Of a stretch of DNA of 64,000 bases, positions 55,698 to 61,335 are shown in pieces; within the stretch, counting starts at the first letter, position 1; each line of letters starts with the position of its first letter. The notes below the pieces were generated by a model. It ran no database searches, was not told where the DNA came from, and saw nothing but the letters and a program-made list of their open reading frames with translations. Location: assembly GCA_007133065.1 (NCBI GenBank), contig SLNJ01000022.1, forward strand, positions 1-64,000, given 5' to 3'. This stretch comes from Opitutales bacterium. GTDB lineage: Bacteria > Verrucomicrobiota > Verrucomicrobiia > Opitutales > Oceanipulchritudinaceae. The position numbers were made by a program, and so were the translations under genes.

Positions 55698-56162
55698 TCA
55701 CGCCCGGGCGCGGGCGGCCTCCTCATGGGCGTCCCCGCCTTCGGTGGCATTGTTTAGATAGAGCCGCGCGAAACCCTGAATGCGTTCGGCGACCCGCGTA
55801 AGCCCGTTGCGCCGATTTGGACTCAGATGCTGGGTGATGCCCACCTCCTTCAGGAACCCGGGATCGACGCGTAACACCTCCTCTGGCGAATGCCCGCTGT
55901 AGAGATCGCAGAGCAACGCCGCGATCCCTTTTGTTATCGAGGAATCCGAATCGGCGCGATAGTGACACAGACCATCGTGGAACTCCGGCACCACCCACAA
56001 CTGGGACATACATCCGTCGATCCGGAAGGTGTCGTTCTTGAACTTCTCTTCCAGCAACGGATGCTCCTTACCGCGATCGATCACATAGGAAAAACGCTCG
56101 TACGGGTCGTCGATATAGCGCAATTCCTCCAGTATCTGCTCTCTCTTCTCTTCAATGGACAT
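55698..56162 (-). CDS. sufE: cysteine desulfuration protein SufE
   Basis: Sulfur acceptor for SufS in iron-sulfur assembly. The 154 residues fit SufE: catalytic Cys51 in DGCMSQLWVV (the equivalent is Cys51 in E. coli SufE), the following SDSSITKGIAALLCDLYSG, and a C-terminal helical part. An Ala/Glu-rich tail of ~12 residues is additional. No other suf gene is near. Start at MSIEEKREQ. Confidence 0.93.
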   Translation of the reverse strand: MSIEEKREQILEELRYIDDPYERFSYVIDRGKEHPLLEEKFKNDTFRIDGCMSQLWVVPEFHDGLCHYRADSDSSITKGIAALLCDLYSGHSPEEVLRVDPGFLKEVGITQHLSPNRRNGLTRVAERIQGFARLYLNNATEGGDAHEEAARARA

Positions 56163-56543
56163 ATCTGATACCCTCCACAATACGAACTTCCGGGAATTGT
56201 GCAATGCCAATGGAAAATCGAGGTCTCACGCCCGAATGGCGCTCGGTTAAGGCATCCTTTCATGATCGGGATCGAAATCGAAATCGGGTCTCCAAATCGA
56301 AACACTCGTTTGCTAGTCAAGCACTTCGATACCGATTTCGATTTCGATAGGGATACCGATTTCGCGCTTAACCGAGCACCATTAGCCTCACGCCCCGGGT
56401 GAATTCCCAATTTCGCCCTTGTCCCTTCGAACGGGACATCCCCGGCACCGCTGATCTTTTCCGGAGAGATGCCGAGTCCTGATAAGACGCCAGCCGAATT
56501 CAAAATCGCTAGTTCGATTCCGATCGGGGCCGCGATCCCGACC
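56163..56543. other. gene-free spacer holding a MITE-like element
   Basis: No gene between sufE and gltA. The left part carries the mobile-like repeat listed separately. The right part, 56430-56543, is rich in CGAT/ATCG words and holds CCGATT-CTC-AATCGG hairpin beside the gltA stop. Confidence 0.6.
56234..56386. mobile_element. MITE-like element, copy 1
   Basis: About 153 bp with 17-bp terminal inverted repeats differing at one base (AATGGCGCTCGGTTAAG at 56235-56251 against its partner at 56367-56383). A direct repeat CTCACGCCC flanks it (56225-56233 and 56387-56395), like a target-site duplication. The interior has stretches of ATCGAAATCG and the signature GGGTCTCCAAATCG. No open frame of its own, so any transposase would be supplied elsewhere. 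A second, inverted copy is at 60.9 kb. Confidence 0.72.
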
Positions 56544-57833
56544 TCACCGATTCTCAATCGGGATGTAGTCGCGCTCCGATTTACCCATATAGATCTGACG
56601 GGGGCGATGGATTTTGCCCTTTGGTGCCTCCGCGATCTCCTTCCAGTTGGCGATCCAACCCGGCATGCGTCCGATCGCGAACATGACAGTGAACATCTCC
56701 ATGGGAATCCCGATCGCCTTCAGAATAATCCCGCTGTAGAAATCGACGTTGGGATACAACTTGCGTGAAATGAAGTAATCATCGTTCAACGCGGCCTCCT
56801 CAAGACGGCGTGCGATGTCGAGTAATGGATCCTTTTTCCCAAGGCTGGCGAGCACTTTATCCGTCATATTGCCGAGTATCTTTGCCCGGGGATCGTAGTT
56901 CTTGTAGACCCGGTGCCCGAATCCCATCATCAGCGACTTTCCGCTTTTCGCCATCTCGATGAACCGGGTGCCGTCATCCCCGGAGTCGCGAATCTCCTCC
57001 AGCATCTGGATCACCGCCGTGTTCGCACCGCCGTGCAGCGGTCCCCACAGCGCGGAGACCCCGGCGGAGACCGAGGCGAAGAGGTTGGCTCCGCCGCTGG
57101 CGACCATGCGCACCGTCGAGGTGCTGCAATTTTGTTCGTGATCGGCGTGGAGCAGGAAGAACAGATCGAGCGCATGACCGAGCCCGTGAATATCGGTAAA
57201 CTCGTTGTACGGCTCGGAAAACATCATGTGCAGGAAATTCTCGGAATAGCGCAGGTCCTTCCGCGGATAGATATAGGGGAGACCGCGGTCGTTGCGGTAT
57301 GCCATGGCCGCGAGCGTACGCACCTTGGAGACAAGCACCGCCGCGGCTTCGTCGAAACGCTCCAGGTCCGTTTCGCGGTTGTTCGTGGCCATTTCGGGAT
57401 AGTAACAGCCCAAAGCGTTCAGCATCGAAGAGAGAATCGCCATCGGATGCGACCGTGGTGGAAACCCGAGATAGTGGTGTTTCAGATCCTCGTGAACGTG
57501 CGCACCGCGCCGCACCTTCTCCCGGAATTCATCGAAATCCGCCTTTCGCGGCAGTTCGCCATAGATAAGCAGCCAAACCATCTCCATGAACGAGGAGCTC
57601 TCCGAAAGCTGCTCGATCGAATATCCGCGGTGGCGCAGAATACCCTTCTCACCGTCAACATACGTAATGTCACTGGTACACGACCCGGTGTTGGCGTACC
57701 CGTCATCGTACGAAATATATCCCGAGTCAGAACGAAGCTTCCTGATGTCGATCGCCTTCTCGTTTTCCGTACCGACGATGACCGGATATTCATACGAGCG
57801 ATCGCCGATTTGGATGGTAGCCGTTTTTTCCAT
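56544..57833 (-). CDS. gltA: citrate synthase, hexameric (GltA) type
   Basis: Condenses acetyl-CoA and oxaloacetate, entry to the citrate cycle. The 429-residue protein matches the E. coli-type length. It has [36 protein letters not shown] and [14 protein letters not shown] with catalytic His residues, and [19 protein letters not shown] with the catalytic Asp. Start at [11 protein letters not shown]. It diverges from the EEP-family gene. Confidence 0.97.
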
Positions 57834-57963
57834 GATGCTATCTTGGAGAATCGCTACGCCAGCTTGCAAGTCAAAGAACCGCGAATTTTTACTTGGATAC
57901 GACCGCCCATCTGCTCGACAATCGCGCGAAATCCGTCATGTTGGATTTTACGCCCCCCCGCGC

Positions 57964-60779: not shown

Positions 60780-61335
60780 GCGTCACGTCCTGACTGGATG
60801 TTAGAAGTCGACACGGTTATTGGACCCTCGCCCCGGTTCGGAATATGATCCGTGATCCGCCTGCAATCCGTTGACGTCTCGTGGTAACGGCGCTCGGTCA
60901 AGCCCTCTCATCCGGATCGTGATCGGCATCGAAGTATTTGCGCATCAAATTATTGATTCGATTTGGAGACCCGATTGCGATCCCGCTCCCGGTCATGAAA
61001 GGGTGTCTTATATGAAAGCCATGCACGTCTCGTGTGATGTCGGACCACACGCCGGAACGGATGATCGAACAGGAGGGCCCAGCACGCTCGAAGCGCTTCA
61101 AAAAACGGCGCGATGAGAAACAATCGAACCGCCTGCGGCCCTCCGCCTCCGTCCCGCTCACGCAAGGCCCGAAACACGGCTCACGCGTCGCGCGAAACAG
61201 GATTCGCACAACGTGAAACCAAGCGCGCACACCAGCGCGAACGCGATCTGCGTTTCTCATAAAAGTTTTTGTTGACTGAAAGGTCTTCTATTAGCAAAGT
61301 TACTGGAAACATCAGCGCGAACTCAGGGAAAAATT
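60780..61335. other. gene-poor stretch upstream of the oxidoreductase operon
   Basis: No convincing gene in about 550 bases. Contains MITE-like copy 2 and, at 61255-61335, an AT-rich leader. AGGGA six bases before the ATG of the next gene is its ribosome-binding site. Confidence 0.6.
60884..61024. mobile_element. MITE-like element, copy 2 (inverted relative to copy 1)
   Basis: About 141 bp homologous to the element at 56.2 kb when reversed. Intact end GCTCGGTCAAG at 60892-60902; the other end is decayed but keeps CTTA and GCCAT. The interior shares CATCGAAGT, GATTCGATTTGGAGACCCGAT and GGTCATGAAAGG with copy 1 (shown in pieces). A perfect 10-bp direct repeat ACGTCTCGTG flanks it (60874-60883 and 61025-61034). 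Confidence 0.72.

Follow-up and report, generated by a model that had tools for sequence, protein, structure and literature searches.

A MITE family of probable IS4-subgroup affiliation with a copy between gltA and sufE in an Opitutales draft genome

The element between gltA and sufE

The window analyzed here is a 64,000-nt stretch of contig SLNJ01000022.1, part of a draft MAG of 162 contigs (G000). It carries a citrate synthase gene (gltA) and a gene for a SufE-type protein (sufE), between which we found a 151-bp non-coding element (56234-56384) with the properties of a miniature inverted-repeat transposable element (MITE; Table 1). Elsewhere in the window, a TPP riboswitch is located at 1522-1635 (Rfam RF00059, 66.7 bits).

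Table 1. Features of the window discussed in the text (positions are those of the 64,000-nt window)
Feature	Position	Strand	Remarks
SufE-type protein gene; MITE upstream of its start	55698..56210	-	PF02657, E 2e-37
Left copy of 11-bp target-site duplication, GTCTCACGCCC	56223..56233		11-bp register common to 36 copies
Whole MITE, 151 bp, non-coding	56234..56384		
Left terminal inverted repeat, 18 bp, GAATGGCGCTCGGTTAAG, outer base variable	56234..56251	+	Fits -AATR--------WTW
Inner hairpin, left arm, CGATNN-type hexamers	56265..56287	+	
Inner hairpin, right arm	56327..56360	-	
Right terminal inverted repeat, TAATGGTGCTCGGTTAAG on minus strand	56367..56384	-	
Right copy of 11-bp target-site duplication, GCCTCACGCCC	56385..56395		Register analysis
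Citrate synthase gene, gltA; MITE downstream of its stop	56544..57869	-	PF00285, E 5e-128
Second, older MITE copy, right TIR decayed	60885..61024		79% identity

The terminal inverted repeats (TIRs) of the element are 18 bp in length, N-AATGGCGCTCGGTTAAG, and their outermost base is not conserved (G...A in this copy). Inside that base, the 17-nt arms at 56235-56251 and 56367-56383 are complementary at 16 of 17 positions, in agreement with the first-pass annotation, which had recorded inverted ends over 17 bases with one mismatch. That annotation had also placed the element at 56234-56386 (153 bp), and while the start is unchanged, the end now falls at 56384. When the whole 64-kb window was scanned exhaustively, only two 17-nt inverted repeats (at most one mismatch, arms within ~200 bp) came up, the ends of the MITE and its inner hairpin, and as both lie within the one element the pattern is not attributable to chance. 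The core arms of the inner hairpin (56271-56287 and 56332-56348) are 17 nt long and 100% complementary. The interior, correctly described at first as non-coding, is thus more than the mere recurrence of short words that had been noted in it, being a second inverted repeat made of CGATNN hexamers.

This inner repeat allows the entire MITE to fold as one long hairpin. Its predicted fold as RNA has an energy of -67.2 kcal/mol (z = -7.6), and the hairpins predicted for other copies have z values from -3.4 to -10. No Rfam family matched at 56234-56384. As gltA and sufE are both on the minus strand, transcription through the MITE between them would produce a long hairpin, and we consider the odds of an effect on the transcripts of either gene to be low. 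None of the 16 other family genomes has the MITE beside gltA, which argues against its being a conserved RNA of the locus.

Target-site duplications, copies and an empty site

The sequence CTCACGCCC is present on both sides of the element, as had been observed previously, when it was interpreted as a 9-bp duplication situated within three bases of the ends. To define the duplication we compared the left and right flanks of 36 copies from six genomes in many registers. A single diagonal agrees, that of 11 bp abutting an 18-bp TIR, with a flank identity of 76% vs. 21-39% off the diagonal, and on it the outer TIR base is mostly C...G. Matches between the flanks totaled 301, vs. 153 ± 10 when flanks were randomly re-paired (maximum 200 in 20,000 permutations). 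The 9-bp reading was consequently replaced by one of 11 bp, the shorter repeat being the ungapped core of the longer. The two flanks of the window MITE, GTCTCACGCCC and GCCTCACGCCC, are identical at 10 of 11 positions and directly abut the TIRs. The one mismatch, together with the unpaired outer TIR bases, indicates that this copy is not recent. Over all 36 copies, the 11-bp flanks are identical in 12 and match at 9 or more positions in 24, and a minority of copies have no duplication (e.g., L004, L005, L029, and L086).

Within its own genome the MITE sequence gave 31 matches, and a search with the TIR pattern (at most three mismatches) gave 57 matches, whereas the reversed control gave 7. Both ends are present in about 13 copies, including the second copy in the window, which is flanked by ACGTCTCGTGG (60874-60884) and ACGTCTCGTGT (61025-61035), a duplication of 10/11; roughly another dozen either have a single end or are truncated where a contig stops. 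Many copies are situated at contig ends, as expected since repeats break assembly. The copies occur at unrelated loci and differ from one another in their number of hexamers.

Beyond this genome, the TIR (at most one mismatch) was identified in 23 of 273 genomes, representing 16 of the 88 genera of the order. Three genomes of one genus in the same family (G001, G009, and G013) have 101-bp MITEs with the same ends and a different interior, and in G039, a member of another bacterial family, the interior of a MITE (L194) is also a hairpin of CGATNN hexamers. At one locus (L196 15-331, contig C71 of G115) two different MITEs of the same TIR class lie side by side, with the flank AGATTAGTCC present after each. 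The multi-copy matches with flanking duplications that had been proposed as a check on the element are therefore present both in its own genome and in relatives.

An allele lacking the element, another of the proposed checks, was identified for a sister copy. The flanks of 20 copies were joined with one duplication kept and searched within the family. On contig C54 of G001 an element lies between two copies of CGGATTAACGC, and contig C443 of G013 spans the corresponding junction with one CGGATTAACGC and no element, at 85% identity. As judged from this alignment, the G001 copy is a precise insertion with duplication, in a genus related to that of the window. Two other G013 contigs, C475 and C204, also cover a junction, but their alignments are blurred at the insertion point and we did not use them as proof. 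For the copy in the window, no orthologous site lacking the element was identified among the 16 other family genomes, in which sufE was not within the gltA flanks retrieved.

Autonomous elements and classification

Full-length insertion sequences with nearly the same ends were identified in other genomes of the order. In a Puniceicoccales MAG (G014, contig C385), identical inverted 17-nt ends, AATGGCACTCGGTTAAG, delimit an element of 1595 bp with a gene of 491 aa between them, and in the Opitutales MAG CSSed165cm_93 (G039, contig C62) the same ends are likewise 1595 bp apart and enclose a 491-aa transposase; the latter element has CCTCTAACGT on both flanks. The two transposases are 75% identical at the protein level. 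That of G014 scores 210 bits against the NCBIfam model for the IS4 family (NF033592, cut-off 115) and also matches PF01609, and it has DGT at residue 154 and ADR at residue 229 in addition to a Y-(2)-R-(3)-E-(6)-K motif (residue 340); a PDB search with the transposase gave no match. The autonomous ends differ by one base from the 17-nt TIR of the MITE (ACTCGGTTAAG vs. GCTCGGTTAAG, i.e., AATGGCA vs. AATGGCG). The expectation that a full-length IS with GCTCGGTTAAG ends would be found was hence borne out except for this base. By eye, the interior of the MITE has no similarity to the autonomous elements beyond the TIRs. IS4-type transposases on contigs C537 of G013 and C175 of G016 have no matching TIR pair alongside.

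A 1619-bp relative of the autonomous element is present in the Verrucomicrobia MAG UWPOB_VERRUCO4, which counts with G014 and G039 among the related genomes that have an IS of matching ends (one base apart) and an IS4-type transposase. The same MAG has an internally shortened autonomous element of 887 bp (L205, 1705-2591), in which the TIRs are intact and a duplication flanks the ends, and it is possible that this represents an intermediate between IS and MITE.

Members of the IS4 subgroup have ends of the form -AATR--------WTW, lengths of 1400-1650 bp and duplications of 10-13 bp (De Palmenaer et al., 2008, PMC2266710). Both ends of the window MITE and the ends of the autonomous elements fit this signature, the unspecified leading base of which corresponds to the variable outer base of the MITE TIR, and the 11-bp duplication falls inside the range for the subgroup. 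With its end signature, its duplication length and an autonomous partner of ~1.6 kb encoding DDE and YREK motifs, the element thus resembles the IS4 subgroup; unlike the published members, it is 151 bp long and without a transposase gene, having the ends alone in common with them. Prokaryotic MITEs that are linked to ISs through their inverted repeats alone are well described (PMC3852290), and the elements here are similarly small, multi-copy and non-coding, with only the TIRs matching an autonomous IS. However, the 237-bp IS4-labeled MITE of H. walsbyi in that study has duplications of 5 bp, as opposed to 11 bp, and belongs to another host group. A repeat-built interior is also known for the MITE BrickBuilt of Porphyromonas gingivalis (PMC4596501), although its repeat is a 23-nt tandem minisatellite and the interior of the window MITE consists of CGATNN hexamers in inverted arrangement. 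No paper joining "Opitutales" and "miniature inverted-repeat" was present in the literature searched. Our verdict is that these elements are, with respect to that literature, a new family of IS4-subgroup MITEs, and as such an ordinary, known kind of mobile element. The element, which the first-pass annotation did not recognize as belonging to a named family, is now assigned to the IS4 family and, within it, to the IS4 subgroup.

No IS4-subgroup transposase of the G014/G039 kind was identified in the draft assembly that contains the window. Its sole PF01609 transposase, on contig C5, has no MITE-type TIRs nearby. An IS-like family whose ends, AATGGCGCTAAGTTAAG, fit the signature is present at the ends of five contigs (C11, C85, C87, C123, and C131; L072-L076, AATGGCGCTAAGTTAAGGCGG...), and its interior is missing from the assembly, likely as a consequence of the IS having been collapsed into a contig that was not binned. 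The TIR of this family differs from that of the MITE at two positions, and we consequently regard the family as a candidate rather than a proven helper.

Movement of the element and alternative explanations

Based on the dispersal of the copies, their TIRs and 11-bp duplications, the empty site of a sister copy and the related autonomous elements with near-identical TIRs, we consider the window element to be an IS4-subgroup MITE moved in trans by an IS4-subgroup transposase (probability roughly 95%), in keeping with its original description as a transposase-mobilized, non-autonomous element. The 18-bp TIRs would be the only parts of the MITE relevant to transposition. The DDE/YREK transposase of a full-length element of ~1.6 kb would recognize them in trans, excise the MITE and insert it at a target with an 11-bp stagger, giving rise to the 11-bp duplication, and the window copy would have entered between gltA and sufE by the same route. 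That the transposase acts on the TIRs in trans is most likely, given what is known of the family and the duplications observed.

It could be argued from the lack of a helper in the genome's own assembly, and from a TIR that is one base removed from those of the autonomous elements and two from that of the contig-end IS family, that the MITE is moved by a transposase of some other family whose ends are similar by chance. We think this very unlikely, since the ends, the duplication length, the size of the autonomous elements and the transposase family each independently fit the IS4 subgroup. The single long hairpin and the location between two genes of the same strand might instead suggest a REP/BIME-type palindrome that a RAYT (Y1 transposase) has spread, or else a structured RNA or terminator conserved at gltA-sufE. 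REPs would not be expected to have target duplications or an empty site, yet 11-bp duplications accompany most copies, and a structured RNA of the locus is at odds with the lack of an Rfam match, the absence of the element beside gltA in the 16 other family genomes and the copies at unrelated loci; either origin is improbable in the extreme.

An IS4-subgroup MITE origin would be compatible with the element having later been co-opted, in its place between gltA and sufE, as a terminator or as a hairpin for transcript processing. This could be argued from the strong hairpin predicted on the strand of both genes (z = -7.6) and from the co-directional genes on either side. Such a role is unlikely, as there is no conservation at the gltA-sufE position and a hairpin follows automatically from an architecture of TIRs plus palindrome, with copies elsewhere folding equally well or better. 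We are also doubtful, if slightly less so, that the interior array of CGATNN hexamers is a selected module (e.g., a protein-binding or hairpin-processing site) rather than neutral filler; if it were, the module would help the MITE to persist or to act on neighboring transcripts.

The hairpin beside gltA and sufE is best regarded as a mobile insertion and not as a conserved regulatory RNA. More broadly, these elements provide Opitutales-type bacteria with a defined MITE family for which there is a duplication length, an end signature and a probable helper IS, and they offer an explanation for many of the contig breaks in this MAG.
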